NCBI RefSeq assembly: GCF_022429645.1
Contig: NZ_CP092480.1
Span: 2,462,501-2,526,500 of the forward strand
Source: Lutibacter sp. A80
GTDB lineage: Bacteria; Bacteroidota; Bacteroidia; Flavobacteriales; Flavobacteriaceae
Direction: 5' to 3'
DNA length: 64,000 nucleotides
A program made the translations under genes and the position numbers. The notes below the pieces were generated by a model. It was not told where the DNA came from, made no database searches, and was given only the letters and a program-made list of their open reading frames with translations. Positions 2,605-43,633 of the stretch are shown here, piece by piece. The first letter of the stretch is position 1, and each line of letters opens with the position of its first letter.

Positions 2605-2610
2605 AATTAA

Positions 2611-3327: not shown

Positions 3328-3329
3328 TT

Positions 3330-5606: not shown

Positions 5607-5614
5607 AATTATTT

Positions 5615-5622: not shown

Positions 5623-5670
5623 TCTATTAAAATTTAAAAGAAAAGCTATTTTTTATAATAAATTTGAACA

Positions 5671-5713
5671 AAAAAAAACCTTGAACATTATAAATATATT
5701 ATAATGTTCAAGG
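5671..5713 (-). terminator. Rho-independent terminator, perfect 15-bp stem
   Basis: Arms at 5679-5693 and 5699-5713 are perfectly complementary with a 5-nt loop. On the minus strand the stem is followed by eight T (complement of 5671-5678). It lies downstream of the histidine kinase gene that ends at 5922 and would end that transcript, or a separate short RNA made from 5785 onward. Confidence 0.8.
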
Positions 5714-5921
5714 AATAAATAAATCAACCCCAAAGACTTATTTAATGTTTTAATGTAAAATGTCAAAACCCCTCTTGACATTAATACACTTCAAATATAC
5801 ACTAGAAATTACATTCATTAAAAAATTGTTAATAAAAAACTATTAAAAAACTGCAAACGGTGAGTTTTAAAACACAAATGGTAAAATCCGTATGCTTAAA
5901 AACAATATAAAAGGGTGATTG
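5714..5921. other. Intergenic stretch with a small hairpin and a minus-strand -7 box
   Basis: No convincing gene. It holds an 8-bp inverted repeat (AATGTCAA at 5759-5766 and TTGACATT at 5775-5782) and a minus-strand TATATTTG box at 5792-5799. Together with the downstream terminator these could define an RNA of about 115 nt. A short ORF starting at 5781 runs into the terminator stem and is unlikely to be real. Confidence 0.35.
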
Positions 5922-7244: not shown

Positions 7245-7247
7245 TCT

Positions 7248-8051: not shown

Positions 8052-10403
8052 TTAATCTTTAATTTCAAATTTTCGTTTAATTTCATTTCCTAAAACATCA
8101 ACAGCAGTAATTGTATATTTTCCTTTTTTTGGCGAAACTTCTATTTCATGAATATTAGTTGTTTCCCCAATAAAATTATCATTTAAATACCAAAACACTT
8201 TAGCATTCACGTCTGAATGTATTAATTTAAAAATCAACCCATTATACACGCCTTTAAAATCTTTGGTTAAATAAATTAATTCATTTTCTTCAGGAAAAAT
8301 AAATGCCATTTTTAATGAATTTTCATTGAGACAATCCTCTCTAAAATTTGGTAATTTTTTATAATTTGGGTGTTTTTTTTGATAATAAAATTGTTGTAAT
8401 GGCGGTAAAACAAACCAACTTTTATGTACCATATTGTTTAATGTTTCGCACGATGAGTTAACCTGAAACTGCTCGTTTTTATCTAAATGTACCCAAATAT
8501 GATAAGGACATGGCGCTGTTTTTAATCCTGCTTGTTGCACAAAAACAGTGTCTTTTTGCTCACAATATTCACCAGCTCTATAACCACTTTTACTACAAAT
8601 AGGAACCTCAACTAACTCATCAAAAGGCATCTCAAACCAAGAATTTTTAGGTAATTTACTAAAAACATTAAACAATATTGGAGCAGCTGTTGAAACACCA
8701 ACCAAACCTGGTCTTCCTTCTCCATCTGCATTTCCAACCCAAACACCAACCACATAATTTTTTGTTACTCCAATTGCCCAAGCATCTCTATACCCAAAAC
8801 TTGTACCTGTTTTCCAAGCAATTTTGTTTGAAGCATTAAAAAACTCCCAATTTTCTTCACCTTCAGGCCTATTAACTTTACTTAATGCTTCAAAAGTTAA
8901 ATAGGTTGAACCTGCATCGAAAATAGTTTTTTCAACTGAAATCTCTCCAAAATCGGGTATAAAATCATTAAAATAAGAAGGCTCTAAAAATTCATTTTTA
9001 TAATACTTTCCTTGTGTATTATCATAATGATTTACTGTTGAAGCCATACTTGCATAACTTTTACACAAATCCCATAAATTACTTTCTGCTCCTCCTAAAA
9101 TTAATGAAAGTCCATAATGATTTGCACCATACTTTAAATCTTTTAAATGTAGTTGCTTTAAATAATGATAAAACCTATCCAATCCAAAACTTTGCAACAT
9201 TCTAACCGAAGGTACATTTAAAGACCTATACAAAGCTTCACTCGCTGCAACTGCACCATCAAATTGTTTGTTAAAATTTTCTGGCCTATAACTTCCTATT
9301 TGTGTTGGAATATCCGCTATTAATGTATTTGGTAACATAGCACCAGCATCTAACATAGCAGCATATAAAAAAGGTTTTAAAATACTACCAGTACTTCGAG
9401 GTTTATTAATAATATCAACATTTTTTTGATGTTCTTTTGTTGTGGGCGAATTCCCTACATAAGTTAAAACTTTACGCGTATTTACGTCTAAAACCAATAC
9501 AGCAATATTGTTAATTTGATTTTGACTTAATTCGTTATAATGATTTTTAACTATCGTATTTACCTTGTTTTGTAAGCTATATTTTACTGAAGTTTTAATA
9601 CGTTTTCCTTGTTGATTTTCTACTACTCGCTGTAATAAATGAGGTGCTATTTGCGGAATTGCATACGGTTTTTGAGGTAATTCTTCTTGAATTGCAAGAT
9701 TATATGTTAATGTATTTATTATATGTTCATCAGCTAATTTCTTTAATAATCTATTTCTTTTAACTAATAATCTTTGTTGATTTTTTCCAGGATAAATTAA
9801 ACTTGGTGCATTTGGTAAAACTGCTAATGTTGCACTTTCTGCCCATGAAAGTTGATTTGGTGAACGTCCAAAATATCGCCAAGAGGCAACATCTAAGCCA
9901 ACAACATTCCCTCCAAAAGGTGCATTTGAAGCGTATAATGAAAGTATTTTTTCTTTAGAATGCCTCAACTCTAGTCTTGTTGCTAATACAATTTCTTTAA
10001 ATTTTTCAAAATAGGTTCTTTGTTGATTTTTTCGCGACAATCTAATTACTTGTTGCGTTAAGGTACTTCCACCTCTTTTTATGGAATTGGATTTAAAATT
10101 TTGAATAGCAGCTTTAAAAATTGAAATAGGATTAAACCCTGGATGCCTATAAAAATAGGCATCTTCAAATTGAACAATACATTGCTTAAATTTAAGTGGA
10201 ACACTATCATTTTGAGGAAACCTCCATTGACCGTCTGTTGCAATTTTTGCACCTAACAATTCACCCTCAGCACTTTCTATAACTGTTGAAGTTGGGTTTT
10301 TAAATAAAGTTTTTGGTAATGAAAAATAATAAGCCGTTAGTAAAATAACGGCTATTATTAGTTTAATTTTATGGTTTTTGATGAATTTCAATGTTATTTT
10401 CAA
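8052..10403 (-). CDS. pbpC: Penicillin-binding protein 1C
   Basis: 783 residues. One N-terminal membrane anchor (about 13-30) precedes the GT51 glycosyltransferase domain (FEDAYFYRHPGF with catalytic Glu80, then RGGSTLTQQ). The transpeptidase domain has SxxK in STGSILKPF, SxN in YRSLNVPSV and the KTGT box in IAWKTGTSFGYRDAW. A C-terminal BiPBP_C Ig-like domain (about 690-783) marks it as PBP1C rather than PBP1A or PBP1B. The start codon appears to be TTG; no ATG fits the membrane anchor. It lies downstream of the alpha-2-macroglobulin gene, the well-known pairing thought to couple wall repair with trapping of invading proteases. Confidence 0.93.
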   Translation of the reverse strand: MKITLKFIKNHKIKLIIAVILLTAYYFSLPKTLFKNPTSTVIESAEGELLGAKIATDGQWRFPQNDSVPLKFKQCIVQFEDAYFYRHPGFNPISIFKAAIQNFKSNSIKRGGSTLTQQVIRLSRKNQQRTYFEKFKEIVLATRLELRHSKEKILSLYASNAPFGGNVVGLDVASWRYFGRSPNQLSWAESATLAVLPNAPSLIYPGKNQQRLLVKRNRLLKKLADEHIINTLTYNLAIQEELPQKPYAIPQIAPHLLQRVVENQQGKRIKTSVKYSLQNKVNTIVKNHYNELSQNQINNIAVLVLDVNTRKVLTYVGNSPTTKEHQKNVDIINKPRSTGSILKPFLYAAMLDAGAMLPNTLIADIPTQIGSYRPENFNKQFDGAVAASEALYRSLNVPSVRMLQSFGLDRFYHYLKQLHLKDLKYGANHYGLSLILGGAESNLWDLCKSYASMASTVNHYDNTQGKYYKNEFLEPSYFNDFIPDFGEISVEKTIFDAGSTYLTFEALSKVNRPEGEENWEFFNASNKIAWKTGTSFGYRDAWAIGVTKNYVVGVWVGNADGEGRPGLVGVSTAAPILFNVFSKLPKNSWFEMPFDELVEVPICSKSGYRAGEYCEQKDTVFVQQAGLKTAPCPYHIWVHLDKNEQFQVNSSCETLNNMVHKSWFVLPPLQQFYYQKKHPNYKKLPNFREDCLNENSLKMAFIFPEENELIYLTKDFKGVYNGLIFKLIHSDVNAKVFWYLNDNFIGETTNIHEIEVSPKKGKYTITAVDVLGNEIKRKFEIKD

Positions 10404-10552: not shown

Positions 10553-13500
10553 CTACTTCACAACCTCAATCCATTTTCCTGTTGTTCGTGTAAAATAATC
10601 GTTATCGTACATCGCTTCAGCTTGTAAACCATATAAATAATAGCTTCCTAAATAAGATGCATTTAACAACACTTTAAACGTTTTAGACTGTTGCTTATTT
10701 AAATCGAAATAAAAATTAACACGATCATCTCTAAGGTCTGTAAAATTAGTATTTTCTGAAGTTGAACTTCCAAAATCGGTAAAACGCGTATTTACAATTT
10801 CCCAACCCGAAGGGAAAATTTGAGTAAGTGCAATATCACGTACTTCTTCTTGTTTTAAATTACTTACAGTAACGTGTGCTTCAAATTCTGTTCCTTGCGT
10901 TAATTTAGATACATTAACCAAATTACCTTGCGCATCTTTATAAACTATACTTACTCCTAAACCTCTTTTTTCTGAAATTTCTTGTCCTATTGGTAAAATT
11001 CCACCAGTTGAAATAGTTACAAATACCACATTTGCTTGATTATTAGTAATTGAAACCGAATTTTCACCCATAACAATTCCTAAATTTCGTTGCGCAATAG
11101 CAAATTTAGAATCAATTTTTTCAACTTTTTTATTGTTTAAAGTATAGTTTAATTTAATTGATTTTCCGCCATTTACCTCAACCATTTTAGCCATAGCTAA
11201 TAAACTATAAGCTGTAGTTTGTGTACTCATCCAACTATTAGACGACAAACGTTTAGCAATATATTTTGCCAATTCTTTAGCTTCACTATTTCCAGTTAAT
11301 AGCATTGTTTCCATTGCCATTGCACGATTTCTATCAACAGAACCATATGTATAATAATCGTAATTATTACTTTCAAAATTTATATTTGCCGTATTAGAAA
11401 TTTTAGTTGCAGCTTCTTTTTGTCCTGCCAAAGCATACGCAGCAGCCAATCGCCATTTTGCATTGTTAGAAAGTTCGCTAAACTCTCGCAATCTGTTCAT
11501 AGAAGACAAATCTGGATGCCCAGCCAATGCCAAAGTATATAATCTGTACGCTTGCGCTAAATCTGAATTATAATTCTTATAACTTAGGCGCCAATTACGT
11601 GCTTCTTGTTTTTGATAACGCAACCAATTTGTTAAAAAAGTTAATGGTAATACATACCCTTTTTTCTCAGCTTCAATCATAAAATGTCCAGCATAACTAG
11701 TACCCCAATCGTTTGCGTTATTTTGTCCCATCCAATAACTTAAACCTCCACTTGCGGTTTGAAAATCACCTAATTTTTCGATTCCTTTTTTAATATTTTC
11801 CGTGATCTCTTGTTTTTGTTGTAATGGAATATCAAAAATTTCACTTAAAAATAATTGAGGAAACACACCGGAAGTAACTTGCTCTACACAACCGTGTGGA
11901 TATTGAATTAAATATTGTAATCTACCGGTAAAATCCATTGAAGGTAAAGTTGAAAATTCGATTTCAGCAAAATTACTTCCAACAACTCCAAAGGTTTTAA
12001 AATCTACAGTTTTTGTTTCATTTGCAGCCAACTCAAACATATTGCTTTTTATTGAAATTGGATTTGGATTTATTACATCAATTTCAACTTCGTAAGAAGA
12101 TTTTTCACCATTTCCACTTGCAATAACTTCAATATTACCAATACCTTTTGCTTCTGAAACATCTAATTGAAAATACGCCATTTTTTCATCTGGACTTTCA
12201 AAAGTTATATTTTGTGAAGCTGCACCAATAACCTTAATACCTTCAGATAATTTTAGCTTTACTTCAACATTTTTCACCTTATCTTCCATTGCAAAAAGGG
12301 TTACTGGAAGTGTTACTTTTTCACCTGGACTTAATTTACGCGGTAATGAGGCCAATACCATTAATGGTTTTCTAACAGGAGTAGTTTCATCAACTTTTCC
12401 ATAAGCTCCAATTGTGTTATCGGCAGCAATTACCATAGTACGTACCGATCCAATATATTTTGGTAACTGAATTGTATGCGGAGCAGTTTTTCCTTTTGTT
12501 AATGTAAAAGGGCCTAAATAACGTACAACCGGTTTAAATCGGTTTGCTTTTTTAGCATTTCCTGCGGCCAATTCAGCATCTCCTCCAATTGCAAAAACTT
12601 GTTCAATACTTCCTCCAAAAGCACCAATAACCTCATCAAAAATATCCCAAGTTTTAACACCTAAAGCTTCTTTTGTGTAGAATGAATTCCAAATTTCTGG
12701 TGTTTTAAAACGTGTTAAATCTAATAAACCTTCTTCAACAACAGCAATAGTATACGACATACGTTTGCCGTTTTTTTCGCTTACTTTTAATGTGAATTTT
12801 TCTTCAGGTTTTAACACTTTTGGCATTGAAATTTCTGGTTCTAAACGCGTATTTGCATCTTCAACCAATAATGGAATTATACCATACAAACGCAAAGGTA
12901 AATCGTTTGCAGTACTTGCATGTGGTTGTAATAATGAAATATTTACAAACACATTTGGAGCCATTTTTTTAGTAATTGGAATTTCTATAGTAGTTTCTCC
13001 TTTTTGCGTTTTTTGCCATACGGTTTCTAATACTTCTGTTCCATTTTCAATACTAATTAAGGCGCGACCTTCTGTTCCAGATGGAAATGTAATTTTTGCA
13101 GTTTCTCCAACATTGTAAGTATCTTTATCTGAGGAAAAAACCAACATTTTTGAAGCTTCAGGATCGTTGGTTGGACGTTTCCACCAATTTTTATAGAAAT
13201 ATGTTGTAGCTCCGGTTGCATGCCCACTTTTTGGATCGATAACACGAATTAAATAGCGTCCACCATCATCATCTTTAATATTTAATTTAAATGTTCCTTT
13301 ACCACTTGCATTGGTATTAATTTTTAATTTTTTATATGGTTTATGAAAACTACTTCCATTGTATGATGATAAGTTTTCATAAGAAGAGCTCCACCACCAA
13401 CGCCATTCAATTTTATACACTTCAATAGCTACATTTTTTTGTTGTATTGGTTTTCCTTCGGCAGTAATTGTAGCTATATCAAAAGTTACGTTTTCATCAG

Positions 13501-16120
13501 TATCATAAGAACTATAAGCCTTTGTTTTTGGTAATTTTAAACCTACAAAAGAATTGTAAGGAGCATAATTTTTAGAAATTACATCCATCGAAAAATCACC
13601 ACCATTTTCAAAAGCTTTGGTTAAAAAAGCTACTTTTAACATTCCAGGTGCTGTGTTTTCTAAACTTACTTTTTTATTGATAGTTGCTTTTCCTGCTGCA
13701 TCTACTTTTCCTTCAAAAACTTTAAACTCTTCTGAAAAAAAACTCTTAGTTGGATCGTTAAAAATATAATTTGGAAATTCTTTAGTAAAAGCACTTGAAT
13801 TGGAAGTGAATTTTGCAGTTACTTCAGCTTTTATATTTTTTGCTGGTGCACCATGCAACCAATTAACTTGTAAATTTCCTTTTATAGCTTTGGTATTTGT
13901 AAGCACTTCATCATTAAAATCTATATTTATTTTTAAACGATTTGGCTTAACAGTTTCAACTTTTAATTGTTTATAAAATTTTGCGCCTCCTACTGAAATA
14001 GTACTGTTCCAATTTCCTGTTGGATCTGTTGCTGATGTAGGGATGGTAAATTTGTAAAGACCATTTACGTTTTCTTTTGTAATTTGATTATATGCTAATT
14101 TTCCTCGAGCATCTGTAACTTCTAATTTTATGGGATGTTCTTTTGGTAATTTGTTTGCATTATCATTTAATACAAATGTTAAGTGAATAGAATCTCCAGG
14201 TCTCCAAACACCACGTTCTCCATAGATAAATCCTTTTAAACCTTTTTGTAGTTTTTTACCTGAAACATTGAATTTACTTAACGACAACGAATGACCATCG
14301 TCTAATTTTAAATATGTTTTATGTTGATCTTTCGAAATAATTGCAAAATATGCATTATGGTCTATATCTAAAATAGCTATCCCTTGATTGTCGGTAGCTT
14401 TTTGTCCAATTTCTTGTTGTTGGTAATTGTATAATACAACCTTTGCCCCCGTAATTGGATTTGTTGTTAAAATATCTGTTACTGCAAAAAAGTAATTATT
14501 ATTTTCTCCTTTTTTAGCAATTACCCCAATATTTGATGCTAAAATATTAGTTGCAACGGTTCTATCTTCATTTAAAAAATAAGCTTTTTTACACGGATTG
14601 TCGCGATCGTTCCAATTGTAATATGTGTTGTTATAACTATAAATTAAATTATCCCAATATTGTTCTTCTCGCTTGTCTAAATCATCTGCACTTGCTGTTG
14701 AATTTTCATTACCATCGTTATAATAATCTTCTTCGTAATAAGTTTCATTACTAGTAGCTAATTCTGTTCCATCACATTTATAAAGCGAATATGCAGGTTT
14801 TATATCTAGTTCTACTCGGTAAATTGCACCTGGATCGGCTTGTATCATTTTAGCTAAATCTATTGTATAAGCCTTCCATTTTCCAGTATTTTCGAGTTCA
14901 TTAGAGACTAAAGTAATTGTTTTTTTAGCTACGCGCCTACCCACTCTTTTTATTTGATAACGATTGGTACTTCCTAAGGAATTATCTTGTAAAAATTGCA
15001 ACACATTATCTTCAAAAATTTTGATAATACGAACATCAACAGCTTTTAAATTAACAGCCTCAAAATTTAATTTTAAATTATTAGAATTTGGTAAAATAAC
15101 ACCGTTTGAAAGCAATCTTACTGCTGGTTTTATTTGTTCAAATGCAATAGTTTCTGAAAAAGATTTTTTTAGTTTATAGCCATCTAAACTAGTAATACCC
15201 TGAAATACATCTACTAATACATTACCAACAATACGTTTGTTTGCATATACTTTTAAAATATTACCATTTACTACGTATTTTAAATTTTCAGCATTTTTAA
15301 TTGCTACCAAACCATTAAAATTTTGTTGCTTTTTTAATGGATCAGAAAAATTTATATTTAAGTGTTGTTCGGGCGATTGAATAACATCTATATTTAAAAT
15401 TGAAAAATTATTTTTCCCAGGAATTATAAGTGAATTCTCTCCACTATTTTTAACATCAATACTTTTTCCATTCCAAGAAATTAATACCTCAGAGTTGTCT
15501 TCAAAACGCTGTACACTATCAATTATAAACATAAACTGTTTACTTACCGAATCTAAACCTTGCCATTTAATTGATAAATTATTGCTGTTTTGCTTTGCAG
15601 AAATTAAATTTTTTGCTTTTTCTAAAGTTAGCATATCAGCTGTTTTTAAAACCCCTTCTACGTATTGCCATTCTTTAGAATATGATTGAATACTTGTAGT
15701 TCTAACACTAAAATTTTGTTCAATTGTTTTAAATTTAAAGGTATAGGTTTTAAATTCTGAAGGAATATTATTGTAAATTTTACCTAAATTTACTGTAACT
15801 GTATATTCTTTATTGGGTTCTAAATTATTTGAAGGTTGAAATAATAAACTTCGTGAATTTACTGCAGCTAATTTTCCACTAATATTTGGTGAAATACTTA
15901 TAAATTTTTCTGAAACTTCTCCATTAGAAACCCAACCTTCTACCTCTTTTGCCAATTCAATTTTAATAGGTTCAGAAATAGAAACCAACCCAGAAGTAGT
16001 ATAATTTATATATTCTCTAAATTTAAAAATATTATCTGTTTCACTTTGTGGATTTTTATCTTTACAGGCTATAAAAGCAAGACAAAATATAGTGGAAAAA
16101 AGCAAGTGTTTAAGTTTCAT
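10553..16120 (-). CDS. Alpha-2-macroglobulin family lipoprotein with thioester
   Basis: 1855 residues. The lipoprotein signal ends in AFIAC with Cys19 as the lipidation site. Successive Ig-like macroglobulin domains lead to the MG-type region GERGVWRPGDSIHLTF and the A2M core (about residues 1150-1250, IAADNTIGAYG). The thioester motif is intact: CVEQ at residues 1411-1414 within YPHGCVEQV, followed by the alpha/alpha toroid and the receptor-binding-like C terminus. Bacterial members are periplasmic protease traps; the thioester bonds covalently to the attacker. Its partner pbpC is next downstream, separated by a REP-like element, so cotranscription is possible but not certain. Confidence 0.93.
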   Translation of the reverse strand: MKLKHLLFSTIFCLAFIACKDKNPQSETDNIFKFREYINYTTSGLVSISEPIKIELAKEVEGWVSNGEVSEKFISISPNISGKLAAVNSRSLLFQPSNNLEPNKEYTVTVNLGKIYNNIPSEFKTYTFKFKTIEQNFSVRTTSIQSYSKEWQYVEGVLKTADMLTLEKAKNLISAKQNSNNLSIKWQGLDSVSKQFMFIIDSVQRFEDNSEVLISWNGKSIDVKNSGENSLIIPGKNNFSILNIDVIQSPEQHLNINFSDPLKKQQNFNGLVAIKNAENLKYVVNGNILKVYANKRIVGNVLVDVFQGITSLDGYKLKKSFSETIAFEQIKPAVRLLSNGVILPNSNNLKLNFEAVNLKAVDVRIIKIFEDNVLQFLQDNSLGSTNRYQIKRVGRRVAKKTITLVSNELENTGKWKAYTIDLAKMIQADPGAIYRVELDIKPAYSLYKCDGTELATSNETYYEEDYYNDGNENSTASADDLDKREEQYWDNLIYSYNNTYYNWNDRDNPCKKAYFLNEDRTVATNILASNIGVIAKKGENNNYFFAVTDILTTNPITGAKVVLYNYQQQEIGQKATDNQGIAILDIDHNAYFAIISKDQHKTYLKLDDGHSLSLSKFNVSGKKLQKGLKGFIYGERGVWRPGDSIHLTFVLNDNANKLPKEHPIKLEVTDARGKLAYNQITKENVNGLYKFTIPTSATDPTGNWNSTISVGGAKFYKQLKVETVKPNRLKINIDFNDEVLTNTKAIKGNLQVNWLHGAPAKNIKAEVTAKFTSNSSAFTKEFPNYIFNDPTKSFFSEEFKVFEGKVDAAGKATINKKVSLENTAPGMLKVAFLTKAFENGGDFSMDVISKNYAPYNSFVGLKLPKTKAYSSYDTDENVTFDIATITAEGKPIQQKNVAIEVYKIEWRWWWSSSYENLSSYNGSSFHKPYKKLKINTNASGKGTFKLNIKDDDGGRYLIRVIDPKSGHATGATTYFYKNWWKRPTNDPEASKMLVFSSDKDTYNVGETAKITFPSGTEGRALISIENGTEVLETVWQKTQKGETTIEIPITKKMAPNVFVNISLLQPHASTANDLPLRLYGIIPLLVEDANTRLEPEISMPKVLKPEEKFTLKVSEKNGKRMSYTIAVVEEGLLDLTRFKTPEIWNSFYTKEALGVKTWDIFDEVIGAFGGSIEQVFAIGGDAELAAGNAKKANRFKPVVRYLGPFTLTKGKTAPHTIQLPKYIGSVRTMVIAADNTIGAYGKVDETTPVRKPLMVLASLPRKLSPGEKVTLPVTLFAMEDKVKNVEVKLKLSEGIKVIGAASQNITFESPDEKMAYFQLDVSEAKGIGNIEVIASGNGEKSSYEVEIDVINPNPISIKSNMFELAANETKTVDFKTFGVVGSNFAEIEFSTLPSMDFTGRLQYLIQYPHGCVEQVTSGVFPQLFLSEIFDIPLQQKQEITENIKKGIEKLGDFQTASGGLSYWMGQNNANDWGTSYAGHFMIEAEKKGYVLPLTFLTNWLRYQKQEARNWRLSYKNYNSDLAQAYRLYTLALAGHPDLSSMNRLREFSELSNNAKWRLAAAYALAGQKEAATKISNTANINFESNNYDYYTYGSVDRNRAMAMETMLLTGNSEAKELAKYIAKRLSSNSWMSTQTTAYSLLAMAKMVEVNGGKSIKLNYTLNNKKVEKIDSKFAIAQRNLGIVMGENSVSITNNQANVVFVTISTGGILPIGQEISEKRGLGVSIVYKDAQGNLVNVSKLTQGTEFEAHVTVSNLKQEEVRDIALTQIFPSGWEIVNTRFTDFGSSTSENTNFTDLRDDRVNFYFDLNKQQSKTFKVLLNASYLGSYYLYGLQAEAMYDNDYFTRTTGKWIEVVK

Positions 16121-16143
16121 TTAGAACGTATTTAAGTGTTTAG

Positions 16144-16151
16144 CAAATTTA
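16144..16151 (-). promoter_or_regulatory. -7 promoter box for the alpha-2-macroglobulin gene
   Basis: Minus-strand TAAATTTG matches TAnnTTTG and lies 23 bp before the ATG at 16120, a plausible leader length. No clear -33 element. Confidence 0.45.
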
Positions 16152-16208
16152 GTATGAAGTTACTAAAAAAGGAATGAGATAAAATTATAATTTCAAATTT
16201 TTATTGTA

Positions 16209-16865
16209 TTATTTTTTTATTGGTAATACATAAAAAAATACTGTTATAAAATGGCAAAAACTACCTAACAAAACAAAAATATGAAATATAAAATGGTTGT
16301 ATTTAATGCGCCTTATACTGTATAGAATAGCACCAACTGTATATGAAATTCCACCTCCTAGCAACCACATTAATCCTTCAATTGGTAAATTTTGAATTAA
16401 TGGTTTTATTGCAAAAACAATAAGCCACCCCATTAAAACATAAGCTATAGTTGAAATTTTATCGTATTTACCAATATAAAAAAGTTTTAAAATAACACCT
16501 GTAATTGCCAACCCCCAAGAAACTCCAAAGATTGTCCAACCAACCCAACCATCTAAAACTACCAAGGTAAAAGGTGTATAAGTACCCGCAATTAAAACAT
16601 AGATTGATGCGTGATCGAAAATATTTAAGCGATAACGTAATTTTGGCTTTTTAGAATTATGATAAAAAGTTGATGCGGCATATAGTACAATTAAGCTTGC
16701 TCCATAAATACTAAAACTAACAATATGCCAAACAGAACCCTCTAAACTTGCAAAAACCACCAGTAATACCAACGCAACTATACTTAAAACCAAACCAAAT
16801 GCGTGAGAAATTACATTTAATTTTTCTTCCTTTGGGCTGTAATATGTTATGTTATTTAGATCCAT
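16209..16865 (-). CDS. Hemolysin III / PAQR-type membrane protein
   Basis: 218 residues with seven predicted membrane helices. Motifs of the HlyIII (PAQR) superfamily are present: EEKLNVISHAFG near the N terminus, STFYHNSK, FDHASIYVLIAGTYTPF and HIFVLLGSFCHF. The conserved His residues bind zinc in characterised relatives. The name comes from a haemolytic Bacillus protein; in most bacteria the role is unknown and may concern membrane lipid homeostasis. It lies 25 bp after plsC on the same strand, which fits a membrane-lipid theme. Confidence 0.85.
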   Translation of the reverse strand: MDLNNITYYSPKEEKLNVISHAFGLVLSIVALVLLVVFASLEGSVWHIVSFSIYGASLIVLYAASTFYHNSKKPKLRYRLNIFDHASIYVLIAGTYTPFTLVVLDGWVGWTIFGVSWGLAITGVILKLFYIGKYDKISTIAYVLMGWLIVFAIKPLIQNLPIEGLMWLLGGGISYTVGAILYSIRRIKYNHFIFHIFVLLGSFCHFITVFFYVLPIKK

Positions 16866-16890
16866 TTATACTCAACGAAATTAACAATAT

Positions 16891-17649
16891 TTAAGTATTT
16901 TTTAGTTGCTTTTTTACATCAGAAATTAGTTCGTTATAAATTAAATCGAACGTTTTATTTTTTACAATAGCACTTTCTTTTACAGTAAGACCTTCTGTTT
17001 TAATAAAATGATGGATTTTTACACGTAATTTACCTGGGCTTCCACTAAAAAACGTGTATGAGAATCGTTTTTTACAATCGTACATGGTAATTGGAACAAT
17101 TGGTATTTGATGTTCAATAGCTAAACGAAAAGCACCGTTTTTAAAATCTGACAACACTACACTTTCATCATCAGGCACCAACCCTTCAGGAAAAATACAT
17201 ACATCTAAACCGTTACATAATTTTTTTCTAGCTTCATCAAACACCGCCTTTCTGCTTCTAGAATTACTTCTATCAACAATTATACAGGTTCGTTTATAAA
17301 AATAACCAAAAATTGGAATTTTGGTAAGCTCTTTTTTACCAACAAAAACAAAGGGATTTTTTGCTAAAGCCAACATTACCATAACGTCAATCATTGAAGT
17401 ATGGTTTGGACATAACATATAACTTTTTGTATCGTCTTGTATTTCTTCTTTTTGTAACTCAATTTTAAAACCCATAACAAAAAGCAAGGTTCTACCCCAA
17501 GCTTGGGCAATTCTAAAAAAAGTTGGATAAAATTTCTCTGAAGAAGTAACTACAAGAAGTACTGGAAAAATAGCAATTATGCTAAATAATACCCAGCCAT
17601 AAAACCAACAACGCCAAAAAATATAAAATATGTATTTAAATATCTTCAT
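16891..17649 (-). CDS. plsC: 1-acyl-sn-glycerol-3-phosphate acyltransferase
   Basis: 252 residues from the ATG at 17649. An upstream in-frame TTG at 17658 is less likely because it overlaps the -7 box. One N-terminal membrane helix is followed by the acyltransferase motifs NHTSMID (HX4D, catalytic His and Asp) and IFPEG, with VDRSNSRSRK between them. The enzyme adds the second acyl chain to lysophosphatidate in phospholipid synthesis at the inner membrane. It is followed closely by the hemolysin III gene on the same strand. Confidence 0.9.
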   Translation of the reverse strand: MKIFKYIFYIFWRCWFYGWVLFSIIAIFPVLLVVTSSEKFYPTFFRIAQAWGRTLLFVMGFKIELQKEEIQDDTKSYMLCPNHTSMIDVMVMLALAKNPFVFVGKKELTKIPIFGYFYKRTCIIVDRSNSRSRKAVFDEARKKLCNGLDVCIFPEGLVPDDESVVLSDFKNGAFRLAIEHQIPIVPITMYDCKKRFSYTFFSGSPGKLRVKIHHFIKTEGLTVKESAIVKNKTFDLIYNELISDVKKQLKNT

Positions 17650-17655
17650 AAGGTT

Positions 17656-17663
17656 CAAAAGTA
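17656..17663 (-). promoter_or_regulatory. Possible -7 box for plsC
   Basis: Minus-strand TACTTTTG fits TAnnTTTG and ends 7 bp before the plsC ATG, implying an almost leaderless transcript. Confidence 0.3.
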
Positions 17664-17825
17664 AATATTTAAACTAAAAAAGCACTAAAAATTATTATAA
17701 ACAACAAAATCTTTCTACTTACAGTAATTTAAGTATGCTACTGACAAAATAAATTGAATTCTTCTTTTTAATTTTTAAAAATTAAACTTAATTTTAAGGA
17801 TTATTAATTTTAAAAAAACCTTAAT

Positions 17826-36389: not shown

Positions 36390-38243
36390 ATGTGTGGAAT
36401 TACTGGGTATTTAGGTTTTAGAGAAGCATATCCAATAGTTATAAACGGTTTACAGAGATTAGAATATAGAGGTTATGATAGCGCTGGAATTGTTTTAACT
36501 TCAACAAAAGACAAGTTAAAACTCTTTAAAACTAAAGGGAAAGTTGCTGTTTTAAAAAAAAATGCTGAACAAAACGATACTACAGGTAATTTAGCATTAG
36601 GACATACACGTTGGGCTACTCATGGAGTTCCAAGTACAGAAAATTCGCATCCACATATTTCAAATTCAGGAAATTTAGTAATTGTACACAATGGTATTAT
36701 TGAAAATTATGATACCATAAAAAAAGAACTTATAAATAGAGGTTATACCTTTAAAAGTGAAACAGATACTGAAGTTTTAATAAATTTAATTGAAGAAATT
36801 CAATTAAAAAATAACTGTAAATTAGGAAAAGCTGTTCAGCTAGCACTAACTAATGTTGTAGGCGCGTATGCAATTGCTGTATACGATGTTAATAAAGCCG
36901 ACGAAATTATAGTAGCAAAATTAGGAAGCCCCTTAGCTATTGGTATTGGAGAAAATAATACCGAATTCTTTATCGCTTCAGATGCTTCTCCGTTTATTGA
37001 ATATACTAAAGATGCTATTTATTTAAATGACGAAGAATTAGCTATAATTAAACTAGGTAAAGATATTAGAGTTCGAAAAATTAACGATGATTCTTTTGTA
37101 GAACCTAATATTCAAGAATTAAAACTTAATTTAGAACAAATAGAAAAAGGTGGTTACGACCATTTTATGCTCAAAGAAATTCACGAGCAACCTCATGCTA
37201 TTTTAGATACCTATAGAGGGCGTCTTTTGGCCAATAAAGGCATTATTAAAATGGGTAGTGTTGACAATAACATTGCTAAATTTTTAAATGCAAAACGCAT
37301 TGTAATAGTTGCCTGTGGTACTTCTTGGCACGCTGGTTTAGTTGGTGAATACCTGATAGAAGATTTTGCAAGAATACCTGTTGAAGTTGAATACGCTTCA
37401 GAATTTAGATATAGAAACCCAATTATTAATAAAGACGATATTGTAATTGCAATTTCACAATCTGGAGAAACGGCAGATACCTTAGCTGCCATTAAATTAG
37501 CAAAAGCAAATGGTGCTTTTGTATTTGGAATTTGTAATGTTGTTGGCTCTACAATTGCAAGAGAAACACATTCTGGTGCCTACACACACGCTGGTCCAGA
37601 AATTGGAGTAGCTTCAACAAAAGCATTTACTACGCAAATAACAGTACTTTCTTTAATAGCTTTAAAATTAGGAAATTTAAATGGAGAACTCTCCAATGCT
37701 AAATTTAACGACTATTTACACAAACTAGAGTTAATACCAAACAAGGTAGAAGAAGTTCTTAAAATTAATGCCGACATAGAAAAGATTGCTGCAATTTATA
37801 AAGATGCTCCAAACTGTTTATACTTAGGTAGAGGCTTTAATTTCCCTGTTGCCTTAGAAGGTGCTTTAAAACTAAAAGAAATCTCTTATATCCACGCTGA
37901 AGGCTATCCTGCAGCAGAAATGAAACACGGACCTATTGCTTTAATAGACGCATCTATGCCTGTAATAGTAATTGCAACCAAAAAAGGGCATTACGATAAA
38001 GTTGTAAGCAATATTCAAGAGATAAAATCTAGAAAAGGAAAAATTATAGCTATTGTTACCAAAGGAGATACAGTAGTAAAAGAAATTGCCGATCATATAA
38101 TTGAAATTCCAGAAACAGAAGAGGCTTTTTCACCTTTATTAACTACAATACCTTTGCAATTGCTGTCTTATTATATTGCAGTAATGCGCGGTTGCAACGT
38201 AGACCAACCAAGAAACTTGGCGAAATCTGTTACGGTGGAGTAA
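36390..38243 (+). CDS. glmS: Glutamine-fructose-6-phosphate aminotransferase
   Basis: 617 residues. Cys2 is the N-terminal nucleophile (MCGITGYLG) of the glutaminase domain, with GHTRWATHG and NGIIENYD. Two SIS isomerase domains follow (VACGTSWHAG, SQSGETADTLAA, GRGFNFPVALEGALKLKE), and the C terminus NLAKSVTVE is the family signature. It makes glucosamine-6-phosphate, the first step toward peptidoglycan and LPS amino sugars. Last gene of its unit; the accessory region begins beyond it. Confidence 0.97.
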   Translation: MCGITGYLGFREAYPIVINGLQRLEYRGYDSAGIVLTSTKDKLKLFKTKGKVAVLKKNAEQNDTTGNLALGHTRWATHGVPSTENSHPHISNSGNLVIVHNGIIENYDTIKKELINRGYTFKSETDTEVLINLIEEIQLKNNCKLGKAVQLALTNVVGAYAIAVYDVNKADEIIVAKLGSPLAIGIGENNTEFFIASDASPFIEYTKDAIYLNDEELAIIKLGKDIRVRKINDDSFVEPNIQELKLNLEQIEKGGYDHFMLKEIHEQPHAILDTYRGRLLANKGIIKMGSVDNNIAKFLNAKRIVIVACGTSWHAGLVGEYLIEDFARIPVEVEYASEFRYRNPIINKDDIVIAISQSGETADTLAAIKLAKANGAFVFGICNVVGSTIARETHSGAYTHAGPEIGVASTKAFTTQITVLSLIALKLGNLNGELSNAKFNDYLHKLELIPNKVEEVLKINADIEKIAAIYKDAPNCLYLGRGFNFPVALEGALKLKEISYIHAEGYPAAEMKHGPIALIDASMPVIVIATKKGHYDKVVSNIQEIKSRKGKIIAIVTKGDTVVKEIADHIIEIPETEEAFSPLLTTIPLQLLSYYIAVMRGCNVDQPRNLAKSVTVE

Positions 38244-38400
38244 TTATTTTAATGATGGTTATAAGTATCTAATTCATTAATTAGAGTTTCTTTTTCTCGG
38301 ATAAACTTAAATCATCCCATAAAGTAACTTGTTATTTTTTAAAAAAATTTGTTATTTCCCCAAAGCTCAGAATCATTTTAGACATTTTTGATTAATATTT

Positions 38401-38545
38401 AACGTATTTGTGTATGAATATTTGCGGTTTCGTGAGTTGGATTTTCGATAGAAATCAAGACGATGAAAACGTAACTATGCCATTGTTTTAAAAATTAAGT
38501 CATTTTTACTTGTTTTTTACCACAGTACTTTGTTGTATGCAGTAC
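38401..38545 (-). repeat. Degenerate attC-like site of cassette 1
   Basis: The distal arm AACGTATTTGTGTATG (38401-38416) matches 14 of 16 bases of the same arm in the site at 39243-39387. The box next to the gene, GTTGTATGCA (38532-38541) followed by GTAC, is the exact inverse of TGCATACAAC at 39243-39252, the start of the same cassette. On the cassette strand the far end reads GTTAAAT, which fits the integron core GTTRRRY. The middle (GGATTTTCGATAG) also resembles the other site. Confidence 0.55.
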
Positions 38546-38546
38546 T

Positions 38547-39218
38547 TTATTCACTATTTATTTCAGTTCTTTTGATATTCCACAAGGCAATTGTCGATGC
38601 AGTAAAAAAGATAGCCAAAATTATATTTAAATAACCTCCTTTAACTACAATCCAAACATTGTCAGGTAAATATTTAGTAACTAAATCCTCAATTAAAAAT
38701 GGAATTAACGGAAAAAAAATGATAATCCATTTTGGATACAAGGTTTTTCTTTTCCAAACTTGGCTAATAAATAGAATGGATAAAATTCCAACAATCGGAT
38801 AAACGAATAATCTCAAAATCTTGTTTATTTTTTCAGATAGTGAAACCGCATTGTTTATGTCAAGATTATGTTCAGTCGCTAATTTCGCAGATGTAGCAAT
38901 AGAGAGAAAAGCTCCGTGAACTATTCCAAACGCTATTAATATACTTCCGAAAAAAATCAATACACCATTTCTAAAAATCGATTTTGTCGGCTTAAATGCG
39001 TAATAAACTTGACCTAATCCAAGCATATAAAACCAAGTCGCAAATAATGCACAAATTCCACTTGTAATAATTCTAAAGTCAGAAGCATTTCCCATATTCC
39101 GCTTTAAACTCATATTGATAGGGTCATAATACAAAAGCATATCTCCAGCAAATAAAATCAATCCACCTAATATTCCAAAAATTCCCAAAACTCTTATCCA
39201 AAACTGGTTCATTCTCAT
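38547..39218 (-). CDS. Cassette-borne multi-pass membrane protein
   Basis: 223 residues with about six hydrophobic helices (around 8-28, 49-72, 85-105, 132-150, 163-182, 193-213). Not recognised with confidence; it resembles small flavobacterial membrane proteins of unknown function. The second Met (39212) is an equally possible start. The stop codon is 1 bp from the GTAC-flanked box at 38532-38545, and the gene starts 24 bp after the opposite box at 39243, so it is tightly packed between an inverted pair like an integron cassette gene. Base composition is slightly less AT-rich than its neighbours by eye. Confidence 0.7.
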   Translation of the reverse strand: MRMNQFWIRVLGIFGILGGLILFAGDMLLYYDPINMSLKRNMGNASDFRIITSGICALFATWFYMLGLGQVYYAFKPTKSIFRNGVLIFFGSILIAFGIVHGAFLSIATSAKLATEHNLDINNAVSLSEKINKILRLFVYPIVGILSILFISQVWKRKTLYPKWIIIFFPLIPFLIEDLVTKYLPDNVWIVVKGGYLNIILAIFFTASTIALWNIKRTEINSE

Positions 39219-39242
39219 TGATTACAGGCGTTTTTCTCGTAT

Positions 39243-39387
39243 TGCATACAACGGGTTTGTGTATGGTTTGTAGCGTATTTTAAGCTACTAATTTACTAAA
39301 TAAAACGCTAACGAAGAAAATCCGATAGGATTTTCGTAAATGTGCTAGAACCAAGCTATAAATTATAAACAGTGTTAGCACAAGTAC
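39243..39387 (-). repeat. attC-like fold-back site of cassette 2
   Basis: About 145 bp between two coding regions. The ends are TGCATACAAC (39243-39252) and GTTAGCACAA (39374-39383). Internal pairings: GGTTTGTAGC (39265-39274) with GCTAGAACC (39344-39352), GTAGC (39270-39274) with GCTAC (39284-39288), and the perfect GAAAATCC (39316-39323) with GGATTTTC (39328-39335). Together they let a single strand fold into one long imperfect hairpin, the form integron integrases use. The last ten codons of the gene at 39356-40054 lie inside it. Confidence 0.6.
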
Positions 39388-40054
39388 GTTTTATTTTATC
39401 TTCATCAATTCTATAGACAATAATTTTTTTTGTATACCAATAGGTTTTCTTTATAAATTCATTTAATGATTTAAATGTGTCAGGTGCAAACCCTCCATTT
39501 TTAGTATAAAAAATTTCATCACGGTAATATGCAGTGTGAATAGTCGAACCTAAATCGTCAACAAAAGCAAGTATAACATCATTCGGAATAGGGTTTTTTA
39601 GATTCCTTCTGGGTTTTGTTGTAAATTCAGTAATTTCTATAAAAGAATTCTTTAGAATTTTTTCTATTGATACTCCATCAATTATTGTTGTTTTGTTAAA
39701 AACATTTTGTCTAAATGTTTCACTATTTTCGAAATATTTCTCCAAAGCGTATGAAAAACAATTTTGATTTATTGAATTATCGGTAAAAATGAAACCTTTG
39801 GAAGCAAAATAGCCCTTGGGATTGATTATTTTTAGTGAAGATGTATCAGTTCTTTCCTTTGAAACACTCAATCTTATCGTGTCATTTAACCACAAAACAT
39901 TAATGATCTTAATTTTCTCTGTCAATTTTATCGTGTCCAAGGTAGTAGTTTTGATATTAATCAGAGAATGAGTTGTTAAATCCGTCTGGCAATAAACTTC
40001 AAAAAAAATAAAGTTGAGAAGTAATGTAATTATTAAATTTCTAAATATTGTCAT
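39356..40054 (-). CDS. Cassette-borne secreted protein with possible papain-like Cys/His pair
   Basis: 232 residues from the ATG at 40054. A longer frame from GTG at 40090 would start inside the recombination-like site. Signal peptide about 1-23 (LLNFIFFEVYCQ). The middle has QNCFSYALEKYF (Cys99 at a helix start) and the later part STIHTAYYRDEIFYTKNGGF (His173 on a strand). Cys-helix then His-strand is the layout of NlpC/P60-like and other papain-fold proteins, but I do not recognise a family. The C-terminal RTCANTVYNL is encoded by the attC-like site, as often seen when a cassette gene's stop lies in its attC. Confidence 0.65.
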   Translation of the reverse strand: MTIFRNLIITLLLNFIFFEVYCQTDLTTHSLINIKTTTLDTIKLTEKIKIINVLWLNDTIRLSVSKERTDTSSLKIINPKGYFASKGFIFTDNSINQNCFSYALEKYFENSETFRQNVFNKTTIIDGVSIEKILKNSFIEITEFTTKPRRNLKNPIPNDVILAFVDDLGSTIHTAYYRDEIFYTKNGGFAPDTFKSLNEFIKKTYWYTKKIIVYRIDEDKIKRTCANTVYNL

Positions 40055-40065
40055 TTTAATCTGTA

Positions 40066-40090
40066 TTTGTGCTAACTCCGTTATATGCAC
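40066..40090 (-). repeat. Cassette 2 leading junction
   Basis: TTGTGCTAAC at 40067-40076 is the perfect inverse of GTTAGCACAA at 39374-39383. Beyond it, GTTATATGCACA forms a small dyad with TGTGCTAAC. The long conserved arm seen at 38401 and 39250 is absent on this side, so this may be the insertion point or a decayed site. Confidence 0.5.
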
Positions 40091-40400
40091 ATATTATATG
40101 CTTTTATCCCGAACTAATTCTACGTATAAAGCAAATATGCCTTTTCTCTATATATCTATAAAATATTGAATTTATTTGCAATTTTACTCAAATATAAAAA
40201 AGGGAATTTTAATTTCAAATGATTATTGTCATTTACTAGTTTCATAAACAACTTAAAAAACAGTTGGTTAGTGGTTCTAATACCGTCCTTGTGTATTTTG
40301 ATAAAAAAGTCACTAGGCAAGGTTGTAGTATTACTTCCTAATTTTCAATGGTATAGATTTTGATATACGATATAGTATATTTCCTTTAAAAATTAGAACT
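40091..40400. other. Intergenic stretch without a recognised gene
   Basis: AT-rich, no ORF with coding character. Before the next gene there is a weak -7-like TATATTTC near 40376. The sequence around 40290-40325 has complementary CCTTG and CAAGG segments but no clear terminator. Confidence 0.4.
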
Positions 40401-40745
40401 ATGAAAAAACAACTTCGTAATTATTTATTATTAACACTTCTAATTTTACCGGCAATAATTTATTCTCAAAAAATCTATTCTGTAAACTACCAATCGCAAG
40501 CTGATGTAAAAGTATATGTTGTAAAATACGAATCTCAGTGCGATTTAAAAGTATTTAAAGCAGATTACGAGTCACAAATAAAAGGAAACGAAGGGTTGTG
40601 GTATTTTGTAAAATATCCTTCGCAATCAGATAAGAAAATCTACTTTGTTAAATATGAATCTCAAAGTGATTTAAAGATTTACTTTGTTAAGAATAAATCC
40701 CAATCTGGTTGGAAAAATAAATCGAAAAAACATTTGTTGTATTAA
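40401..40745 (+). CDS. 7(1) septoil knot-type repeat protein (DUF6150-like)
   Basis: 114 residues. Signal peptide about 1-22 (ends IIYSQ). The rest is built of seven or so 12- to 13-residue units of the pattern (I/V)YxVxYxSQxDxK, such as VNYQSQADVKVY, VKYESQCDLKVF and VKYESQSDLKIY. I recognise this as the family once called DUF6150, now described as a 7(1) septoil knot. It is found in many Bacteroidota and some phages; function unknown. Only the third unit carries a Cys. It lies beside the cassette pair on the opposite strand. Confidence 0.72.
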   Translation: MKKQLRNYLLLTLLILPAIIYSQKIYSVNYQSQADVKVYVVKYESQCDLKVFKADYESQIKGNEGLWYFVKYPSQSDKKIYFVKYESQSDLKIYFVKNKSQSGWKNKSKKHLLY

Positions 40746-40925: not shown

Positions 40926-40994
40926 TGTCATACCTGCGGAGGCAGGTATCCATTTCTCAGCTTGTTATAGATTCCTGCCTACACAGGAATGACA
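40926..40994. repeat. REP-like element, copy A
   Basis: 69 bp with inverted ends TGTCAT and ATGACA and two internal hairpins (TACCTGC with GCAGGTA; ATTCCTGCC facing CAGGAAT). It is the same family as the 67-bp element at 45718-45784, sharing ends, hairpin order and length. Confidence 0.8.
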
Positions 40995-41109
40995 GACCTC
41001 TTTACAATTAGTAATTTCATTTCCTCTTCTTGAGAAAACTATTTTTTAGGGTCTCAAGCTTAAGTAATTTCTAACGTAAAACTCACCTGGAATTACAAAG
41101 TAGCTAACG

Positions 41110-41862
41110 CTATATTTCTTTTAAAGCATCGGTAGAAATCCAGCCGGTTTTACCATCTGCTATTTTAATTTTTTTCCAGTTGTCTAATACATCTAAAACA
41201 ATAACTTTAGTACCTTCGTGCAATTCAAAAATTTCATCACTACTAACAGAAGGAGCATTCATTATTTCAACTTTAGGAGAAAAAATAATTGCAATTCTAT
41301 TTTTTTGAACTGTTTTATAATTATTAAAGGCAAAAAATACGGTAATAGCTAAAATAAAAACAGCCAAAATACTGGTATTAAAATAGAATAATTTCTTTTT
41401 TGATGATTCTGAAAAATAATACAATAAAAACAACAAAGCCGCTAAAAAAGAAGCTACAACAGCTATAATTGCCCAAGTATCAAACGGTAATTTTTGAATA
41501 ACACTTGCAGAGAAACGTTGTAAAAAGGTTTTCGGCAAATCTTCAATTACATCAATTGTCATTCTTTTTGCAAACTCTAAATTTGCTGCTGCATCTGCAT
41601 TTGCAGGATTTACTTTTAACGCTTTTTCGTAATAATAAATTGCTGGTGCAACTTTATTCATTTTATAATAACAATTTGCAATATTAAAATACAAATCATC
41701 ACTTTCAATACCTTGCTCTTCAATAGCTAAATAAACACCAACGGCTCTTGTATAATTTTCTTCTTTATAAAATGTGTTTCCTTCAGCAAATAATTTATTT
41801 ACTTCTTGAGAGTAAGCAACAAGGCTAAACAGCAACACTATTATGCTAACTACTTTTTTCAT
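41110..41862 (-). CDS. batE: BatE: TPR and SH3-domain membrane protein
   Basis: 250 residues from the ATG at 41862, which starts 1 bp after the batD stop; the longer TTG form overlaps batD. Signal peptide about 1-19 (LFSLVAYSQ), then TPR units (NTFYKEENYTRAV, FNIANCYYKMNKVAPAIYYYEKAL), two membrane helices (about 126-150 and 160-180), and a C-terminal SH3-like domain (EIFELHEGTKVIVLDVLDNW, KTGWIS). Last member of the bat cluster, associated with aerotolerance and virulence in Bacteroides and Leptospira. Confidence 0.88.
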   Translation of the reverse strand: MKKVVSIIVLLFSLVAYSQEVNKLFAEGNTFYKEENYTRAVGVYLAIEEQGIESDDLYFNIANCYYKMNKVAPAIYYYEKALKVNPANADAAANLEFAKRMTIDVIEDLPKTFLQRFSASVIQKLPFDTWAIIAVVASFLAALLFLLYYFSESSKKKLFYFNTSILAVFILAITVFFAFNNYKTVQKNRIAIIFSPKVEIMNAPSVSSDEIFELHEGTKVIVLDVLDNWKKIKIADGKTGWISTDALKEI

Positions 41863-41863
41863 T

Positions 41864-43633
41864 TTATAACTGTTTATCAATATTGGTTATTACTTCTTTA
41901 GCTTTTTCAAACTCTTGTTCCATCATTACATTTGTTGTTGGCGTGTAACGTGCAAAATCACAATCGTTTAACACCTCTACAAATTGTTTTATAGTACTTA
42001 CTTCTACTCCTTTTTCGGTTAATATTTCTGAAATTCTTTCTTTTGAAATTTCCGAAGTTTCAATCTGTAATTTAGCTTTTAAAAAGTTATGCAATGCTTT
42101 TTCAAGTGCAATGTAAAACGCTTCTTGATTACCGAGTTGTTTTTTAGCTTCAGATAAATATTTTTTAGCTAACCTATCTGCTTTTCTAATTTTATTTCCA
42201 AGTACATCTCCAGCGCGTTTTGCACGTTTTTTCCCAATAAATATTGCAATTGGAATTGCTAAGAACGGCAAGAATAATAATAAATAAAATAAATCTGATT
42301 TTAAAAACTCTGATTTAATTTTAGGCTGTAAATCCGCATTTAAAGCAATAAATCTAAAATTATTACCCGTTACAACCACATTTTGTTTAGATGCACTAGC
42401 GCTATTGTTATTAGCTACTGAAGGCAACTCTTTTCCCTCTGTAACATCTACAATAGTTGCAGGTGCTTTAATGGTTTTATATTTTTTCTCTTTCGGGTTA
42501 AAATAAGAGAATGCTACCTCTGGTATTTTATATTTTCCTTTATATTGAGGTACAACGGTGTAAATATCTACAACATTTCCACTTAAACCAGTTAAAGCTG
42601 TTGTTACTTGTTCTTTATGTTCTGGTGTATAAACTTCTAATTCGGCAGGTGTAACTATTTTAGGAATTTCAAATAATTTTAAATTTCCTTTTCCTGAAAC
42701 TTTTACTGTTAATTGCGCTGCATCGTTAGCTTTTAACACGTTTTTATTAGCTTTAACTTCAAAGTTAAAATCTCCAACTGCTCCAGCAAAATCCAATGGT
42801 TTTCCTTCTTCTGGCAATTGTTTTACATTTACTGTTCTAATAGCAGATGCTGTTGCGTAATTAATATTTTTTGTAATCATATTACCAAAAAAGTCACCTC
42901 TACCTGTTGGAATACCAACTGAGAAATCCATTTTTATGGGCTCAATTTTTAATTTTCCCGCTCTTTGTGGTATTAATACGGCACGTTTTAATACAATATA
43001 TCTATAATCTTCTCCATTGTATTTTCCCATTTGAACCTTAATATTCTTTACTTCAATATCTTGATTCCAAAAACCATTGTATTGTGGAGTTTCACTTACA
43101 CGCCAATCGTTAACACTAATATTTTCACTAACAAAAAGTTTATAGACTACATAAATTCCTTCACCTACATAAGGGTTTAAATTTGAAACTTCAGCAACTA
43201 AATGAATATTTTGTTGCGCAATAAATTCTGGATTATTTGGGTCTTTTGGTATTTCTACAGCATCTACAACACATATTTTAACTGCATTAGATTTTATAAT
43301 TTTATCGTTATATTCTATTTCAGCTGGAGCTATTAAAAATTCACCTTGTTTTTTTGGTTCTAGTATATAAATATACGATTGTGCATAACTGGCTTTTCCG
43401 TTAATCCACGATTGATTTACTGATGAACTTGGACCACCAACCACTTTAAAATTGGTAAATGGTGGAGCTTTAAAATTATCGGCTCCTTGTTTGTTAACGG
43501 TAAACACAATTCTGAAGCGCTGATTTACACCTAGTTTGTCTTTACTAACAGTTGTTTTAAGCTCAATTTGAGCAAAAAACACTTGCGATGTAAATAATAA
43601 AATAGTTACTATGTAAAACTTCAATAATTTCAT
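41864..43633 (-). CDS. batD: BatD: oxygen-tolerance protein
   Basis: 589 residues. Signal peptide about 1-21 (SQVFFAQ), Ig-like repeats in the periplasm (KLGVNQRFRIVFTVNK, ATAQSYIYILEPKKQGEF-type strands, DIYTVVPQYKGKYKIPEV), one membrane helix (about 445-465, YLLLFLPFLAIPIAIFIG) and a cytoplasmic helical tail ending in CDFARYTPTTN. It is the BatD subunit of the Bat cluster, coupled to batE downstream (1 bp) and 49 bp after batC. Confidence 0.88.
   Translation of the reverse strand: MKLLKFYIVTILLFTSQVFFAQIELKTTVSKDKLGVNQRFRIVFTVNKQGADNFKAPPFTNFKVVGGPSSSVNQSWINGKASYAQSYIYILEPKKQGEFLIAPAEIEYNDKIIKSNAVKICVVDAVEIPKDPNNPEFIAQQNIHLVAEVSNLNPYVGEGIYVVYKLFVSENISVNDWRVSETPQYNGFWNQDIEVKNIKVQMGKYNGEDYRYIVLKRAVLIPQRAGKLKIEPIKMDFSVGIPTGRGDFFGNMITKNINYATASAIRTVNVKQLPEEGKPLDFAGAVGDFNFEVKANKNVLKANDAAQLTVKVSGKGNLKLFEIPKIVTPAELEVYTPEHKEQVTTALTGLSGNVVDIYTVVPQYKGKYKIPEVAFSYFNPKEKKYKTIKAPATIVDVTEGKELPSVANNNSASASKQNVVVTGNNFRFIALNADLQPKIKSEFLKSDLFYLLLFLPFLAIPIAIFIGKKRAKRAGDVLGNKIRKADRLAKKYLSEAKKQLGNQEAFYIALEKALHNFLKAKLQIETSEISKERISEILTEKGVEVSTIKQFVEVLNDCDFARYTPTTNVMMEQEFEKAKEVITNIDKQL

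Follow-up and report, generated by a model that had tools for sequence, protein, structure and literature searches.

Two genes between glmS and a batE-like gene in Lutibacter sp. A80 are very likely mobile cassettes from an integron-like gene-capture system in Bacteroidota

Integrons are thought to be rare in Bacteroidota, and almost none have been reported in the phylum; complete integrons in Bacteroidetes were reported with IntegronFinder 2 only in Salinibacter ruber (PMC9024848). Surveys rely on models of the integrase IntI and of its attC sites. In canonical attC sites, extrahelical bases protrude from the R''-L'' arm and the central spacer is unpaired (PMC2727003), and an IntI-specific insertion near patch III has been described as necessary (PMC9668308, PMC8138268). 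Two other groups of tyrosine recombinase systems are relevant to what follows: pdif modules use a near-fixed site, and archaeal XerA, whose target is dif, is not known to have cassette arrays or a comparable N-terminal extension.

We analyzed a 64,000-nucleotide stretch of DNA (the window), corresponding to C1:2462501-2526500 of the complete 3.93-Mb genome of Lutibacter sp. A80, and conclude that two genes within it are very likely mobile cassettes of an integron-like gene-capture system of Bacteroidota, although recombination is inferred and the evidence is comparative only. As in integrons, tandem cassettes lie behind an integrase and an attI-like site with a G^TT junction, the R box at the start of a cassette matches the cassette's own end site, the bottom strand forms a hairpin with a variable terminal part, the cassette genes are patchily distributed, and plasmid-borne versions exist. 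In contrast to integrons, the integrase lacks the IntI-specific insertion and carries an extra N-terminal domain of ~90 aa, the box is GTTR followed by free bases, the stem bulges by 3 nt on the R'-L' arm rather than on the R''-L'' arm where attC has its extrahelical bases, the integrase reads in the same direction as its array, and several attI-like heads accompany one integrase per genome. The system resembles an integron in how it would operate, but its integrase, attachment site, and hairpin sites are each of a distinct kind, and it does not qualify as an integron by IntI and attC. The window resembles a CALIN in having two sites and no integrase nearby and differs from one in having an attI-like head and sites that are not canonical attC. 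No description of this system was found in the open-access literature searched; preprints and subscription papers were outside the scope.

Two box-bounded units in the window and an array elsewhere

A preliminary description made from the sequence alone had reported two minus-strand genes, each bounded by a perfect inverted pair of 10-bp boxes. All four box positions were confirmed: GTTGTATGCA (38532-38541) with TGCATACAAC (39243-39252), and GTTAGCACAA (39374-39383) with TTGTGCTAAC (40067-40076). The plus strand shows GTAC after both first boxes, not the (A/G)TAC that had been claimed. Perfect inverted 10-mer pairs spaced 400 to 1000 nt apart numbered seven between 38401 and 40090, against 3.4 expected by Markov resampling (P=0.105), and bare box pairs in the window are not beyond chance by themselves. 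We rejected the raw pairs as evidence on this ground; since they prove little alone, the question was put to the genome as a whole and to related genomes.

Read on the minus strand, the locus begins with an attI-like site at the cassette head (40067-40138; ..CGGGATAAAAGCATATAATATGTGCATATAACGGA^GTTAGC, with the junction GTT at 40076-40074). Cassette B follows (39252-40075, minus strand), from (G)TTAGCACAA up to the G that precedes TTGTATGCA. Its gene (39356-40054, minus strand) is a 232-aa open reading frame with a signal-like N-terminus for which no Pfam or NCBIfam family was found, and its attC-like site, laid out R''-L''...L'-R', occupies 39243-39383 on the minus strand, the folding strand being plus. 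The start box of cassette B (GTTAGCACAA, 40076-40067) and its end box (TTGTGCTAAC, 39383-39374) match at 10 of 10 positions. Cassette A (38403-39251, minus strand) starts at (G)TTGTATGCA and has its last base, a G, at 38403; it contains the gene for a 223-aa membrane protein (38547-39218, minus strand; DUF6796, PF20599, Pfam E=2e-20); its start box (39252-39243) and end box (38541-38532) also match at 10 of 10 positions. The attC-like site of cassette A (38394-38541, minus strand) has an intact glmS-side L'/R' half (AACGTATTTGTGTATGAAT..TTTGCGG) and a degenerate gene-side L'' half; its end motif, CATACACAAATACGTT, lies at C1:2500901-2500916. Conserved genes flank the locus: glmS on the left (36390-38243, plus strand), present in 38 of 38 genus genomes, and a batE-like gene (TPR/SH3) on the right (41110-41880, minus strand), where DNA homology with two relatives (G019 and G031) resumes at ~41110. 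An Rfam search of the region returned nothing. A DUF6150 gene (40401-40745; PF19647, E=2.9e-23) separates the attI-like head from the batE-like gene; it is on the opposite strand and outside the box-bounded units. Beside the batE-like gene we also observed a palindromic repeat-like stretch (40930-41010; ATACCTGCGGAGGCAGGTAT .. ATTCCTGCCTACACAGGAAT) with the appearance of a dispersed repeat.

A search of the genome with the end motif of site A returned more copies at 947 and 957 kb. These belong to ~18 cassettes on one strand, at ~946.9-964 kb, immediately downstream of the gene for a 390-aa tyrosine recombinase (P0001, C1:965117-966289) that is oriented like the array. Each array cassette opens with GTT and ~7 further bases; at its other end stands this box in reverse complement, and then a site of ~138 nt. 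A covariance model, R2, was built from 13 sites of this array, 1.5 Mb from the window and with no window sequence in training. It returned at least 35 good sites in the genome, grouped at 606-608, 666-714, 947-964, 2029-2030, and 2501 kb. Site B scored 100.1 bits (E=1.2e-18), whereas site A was recovered only weakly (19.5 bits, E=0.077); the E-values of R2, and of the model R3 described below, are rough.

Several statements of the preliminary description can be judged on these results. Its observation that no IntI-like gene lies in the window held, but the distant recombinase for which it had proposed a genome search was found as a candidate integrase at 965 kb, heading an array of the same sites. 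Both parts of its alternative, a cassette cluster without integrase or an undescribed cassette family, held. It had proposed a new site model built from the window; R2 was built from the 965-kb array instead. The absence of further box copies, which it had named as a refutation, did not occur, there being at least 35 in the genome. The attI-like head in the window (40070-40119) was missed.

Box matching and the fold of the bottom strand

Insertion of cassettes through G^TT recombination requires that each start box agree with the end box of its own cassette rather than with the second box at its physical site. For 71 cassettes from the A80 genome and relatives, the mean match over seven variable positions was 5.94 within a cassette and 2.47 within a physical site; 20,000 shuffles gave 2.48 (SD 0.17, maximum 3.20). 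For 81 cassettes of named species, the corresponding values were 6.40 of 7 within a cassette, 2.67 within a site, and 2.56 when shuffled (SD 0.16). The earlier claim that the outer box of a cassette matches its own site and not that of its neighbor was correct and extends to both sets of relatives. Its further claim, that the elements are former circles inserted by site-specific recombination, is supported by the matching, with recombination itself inferred. The pattern is hard to explain without circular or joined intermediates, the circles themselves being an inference from comparison. The integron criterion of circular cassette units is met in this way. The boxes of the window had been said to depart from GTTRRRY at one or two positions; such a departure is a family-wide rule, with GTTRRRY fitting 8 of 142 boxes and GTTR fitting 140.

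The 13 aligned array sites gave no consensus pair on the coding strand, either by RNAalifold or in the model. On the bottom strand they formed a 22-pair stem with a 3-nt bulge adjoining the R box, with 94% of the cells paired and eight pairs changed on both sides, and no shuffle of this alignment equalled the observed share of paired cells or the covariation score. The signal is confined to the bottom strand because A-C mismatches turn into G-T pairs there. The bottom strand folded better than the top in all 16 sites first examined, both window sites included (-22.3 versus -18.4 kcal/mol for site B in its circle form), and was lower in energy for 141 of 142 sites, compared with 50 of 142 in a random-stretch control. 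With 150 aligned sites, 95.0% of the cells were paired, 14 pairs were changed on both sides, and the covariation score was 0.361 versus 0.120 (0 of 500 shuffles). That larger alignment was fitted to the model, so the 13-site alignment, which was not structure-fitted, is the cleaner test. In the consensus the L stem is paired throughout and the single 3-nt bulge lies on the R'-L' arm. Judged as attC, the sites satisfy the criterion of a single-strand hairpin (bottom strand, 141 of 142) but not that of extrahelical bases with an unpaired central spacer.

Candidate integrase, attI-like heads, and distribution

The catalytic residues R232, K257, H321, R324, H347, and Y356 are invariant. Against TIGR02249 (cut-off 265 bits), P0001 scored 205, compared with 125.6 for XerD and 105.2 for XerC of the same genome, whose genes are located elsewhere. 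The distance from KGRKDR to HTLRHSYATH is 74 residues in P0001 and 116 in IntI of the same phylum; P0001 is without ~42 residues found in IntI between KGxKDR and HTLRH, the gap falling at IntI4 180-247. The integron criteria of the TIGR02249 cut-off and the IntI insertion are consequently unmet. In a tree, the integrase clade (support 97) was placed beside IntI (99) and separate from XerC/D; the method was quick and the outgroups few, so the sister relation to IntI is provisional. The catalytic part has archaeal XerA as its closest neighbor both by profile (NF040815, 214.1 bits, cut-off 220) and by structure (PDB 4a8e/5hxy). In predicted models, the N-terminal domain of ~90 aa has the order beta-beta-alpha-beta-beta-alpha. 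Its top Foldseek match, a weak one, was the HARP domain of SMARCAL1 (E=0.093), followed by the XPB damage-recognition fold (about 0.09), and HARP ranked second in a sequence-profile search (E=0.084, not significant). These are two weak, partly independent signals and hence a lead, not evidence of membership. A fork- or hairpin-binding domain at this position would suit a folded site.

The first cassette behind the integrase begins at a conserved TTATCC-GGAA .. ATATAAC-N-(A/C)GTT, found at 27 loci in several genera; most of these attI-like heads lie no more than 250 nt from the integrase stop, and the box of the first cassette matches. The integron criterion of an attI next to the integrase is met by sequence, the function being inferred. 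R3 was built from the 27 attI-like sites of other genomes, with the A80 genome excluded. Its top match in the window was 40119-40070 on the minus strand (18.5 bits, E=1.1e-4), directly adjoining the start of cassette B and placed identically by nhmmer; genome-wide, this head ranked seventh (E=0.007). The match is modest alone, and its exact position is the main support. The other heads lie at the 965-kb and 715-kb arrays and at 608, 668.5, 670.8, and 3363 kb. Behind every satellite head tested, and behind that of G019, comes a box whose end box agrees with it at 8 to 10 of 10 positions, and in total seven heads, from the A80 genome or from G019 at the same locus, precede first cassettes with matching end boxes. 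No integrase remnant was detected by tblastn near the window or the other satellite heads, which, together with the R3 heads, indicates one integrase and about seven heads in the A80 genome.

Integrase homologues were found in about 30 of 36 genus members and in many Flavobacteriaceae. Among 80 named integrase loci, 45 had at least 1.5 kb of downstream sequence; sites followed the integrase at 43 of these, and 224 of 225 downstream matches had the orientation to be expected of cassettes pointing the same way as the integrase gene. Of 120 Flavobacteriaceae genomes, each from a different genus, 105 contained sites. Genes A and B were absent from all 37 other genus members searched. The preliminary description had proposed comparing the glmS-batE interval in relatives and would have been refuted by an ancient syntenic block. 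None was seen, the interval gaining and losing cassettes among congeners: in G031, second closest by glmS, the batE-like gene lies ~10 nt after glmS and the interval is empty, and in G019, the closest, the interval is occupied by an attI-like site (E=5.6e-7) together with a different cassette, which points the opposite way (site, 71.5 bits). G019 also has a broken integrase copy (L279:3196-4234), with no R2 site within 18 kb around it, yet retains this cassette.

Some observations concern plasmids and other families. A Chryseobacterium sp. SNU WT5 plasmid (NZ_CP041688.1, L280) encodes an integrase of the same type (8986-10029, 40% identity), with an attI-like GACATATAAACAAGTTGGGAAAA 104 nt past the integrase stop and four R2 sites downstream (11384-17688); a Persicobacter plasmid (L282) has one site of 39 bits. 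In other families of the order, integrase homologues of 40-42% identity (L060 of G049, 11854-16938; L061 of G055, 532-7271) adjoin repeat arrays of a different, GC-richer site type, and further site families are a possibility. The GTT-box pairs at L060 and L061 numbered 2 and 5 (0.41 and 1.37 expected) and were within the shuffled range, so a wider spread rests on the repeats and on weak R2 matches.

Proposed mechanism, alternatives, and significance

We propose that a cassette consists of one or a few genes and one recombination site of ~138 nt, that a tyrosine recombinase of a distinct subfamily, of which P0001 is the representative here, would cut at G^TT and excise cassettes as circles, and that the circles would enter either the sites of other cassettes or an attI-like site in double-stranded form (TTATCC..ATATAAC-N-(A/C)GTT). 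It is inferred that the substrate is the bottom strand, single and folded, that P0001 is the enzyme, and that it acts in trans on the window. The comparisons establish circle-like box matching, a covarying bottom-strand hairpin, linkage to the integrase, a conserved head, and gain and loss; no circles, and no two states within one strain, were observed. In the window, the attI-like head and its two cassettes stand alone, the integrase gene being 1.5 Mb away, and may form a satellite platform or an old relic; satellite heads in general could be either served in trans or relics. Also counting against the proposal, site A is degenerate, the attI-like match in the window is modest by itself, and the integrase is without an insertion held essential in IntI. 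Conceivably XerC, XerD, or another recombinase is the enzyme; this is not excluded.

The alternative that survives best, although we consider it unlikely, accepts the same cassettes and integrase but invokes double-stranded recombination of the Xer or phage type, with the hairpin a by-product of inverted L boxes or an RNA terminator. In its favor, the enzyme is closest to archaeal XerA, and the IntI insertion, through which extrahelical bases are read, is missing from it. On the other side, pairing of the bottom strand is kept through two-sided changes, its G-T pairs are A-C mismatches on the transcribed strand, RNAalifold found no pair on the coding strand, and the boxes vary, with matching confined to those of one cassette. 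An ordinary CALIN, that is, canonical IntI/attC cassettes whose integrase was lost and whose sites drifted, is very unlikely. The system does have in common with integrons its overall plan, the G^TT junction, the hairpin, and a bias toward the bottom strand, and IntI exceeds the NCBIfam cut-off in 84 of 296 genomes of the phylum. However, no listed genome of the same family exceeds that cut-off (the sole match reported, in G147, had 141 bits), the linked integrase scores 205 against 265, has ~42 residues fewer, and forms a separate clade (97/99 support), 8 of 142 boxes fit GTTRRRY, and the sites are conserved across 104 genera without drift. We rejected a canonical CALIN because integrase and boxes are both unlike. 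We give similarly little credence to other modular elements, either modules of the Xer-dif (pdif) type or a family of transposons whose terminal repeats vary: inverted boxes do flank the genes and the enzyme is Xer-like, but the boxes differ between cassettes with GTTR alone fixed, so that the criterion of conserved 28-bp dif-like sites is not met, and each gene has a single long site, the units following one another head to tail in one orientation behind one integrase. The reading that ordinary genes merely happen to be surrounded by chance inverted repeats or by terminator hairpins, to which the insignificance of the four boxes by themselves lends support, is all but excluded by the independent R2 match to site B and by the box matching, linkage, covariation, and spread.

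Returning to the integron-like reading, a bolder form of it can be stated, against which the balance tips slightly. Under it, the system would be a separate integron class that is general in the Flavobacteriaceae and also occurs in other Bacteroidota; the task of recognizing the folded cassette site would have passed from the IntI insertion to an added HARP-like hairpin- or fork-binding N-terminal domain, and one integrase would serve attI platforms scattered over the chromosome (seven in the A80 genome, that of the window included). If the integron-like reading is true, a gene-capture system in most genera of a dominant marine family has been overlooked so far, because the integrase falls below the survey models and, by inference, the sites do as well. 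It would then represent an independent design of hairpin-site recombination, with a different bulge, a different domain, and none of the insertion considered essential, and the origin of folded single-strand recognition in Xer-like enzymes, an old question, would become testable by comparison. Many unknown genes, some of them defence-like, would gain a known mode of movement, and copies exist on the Chryseobacterium plasmid. As separate observations on gene content, the main array includes two GmrSD-like genes, and the first cassette behind a satellite attI-like head, at C1 608-610 kb (L100:5005-6975), encodes a candidate defence protein, PDC-S41 (E=7e-292).
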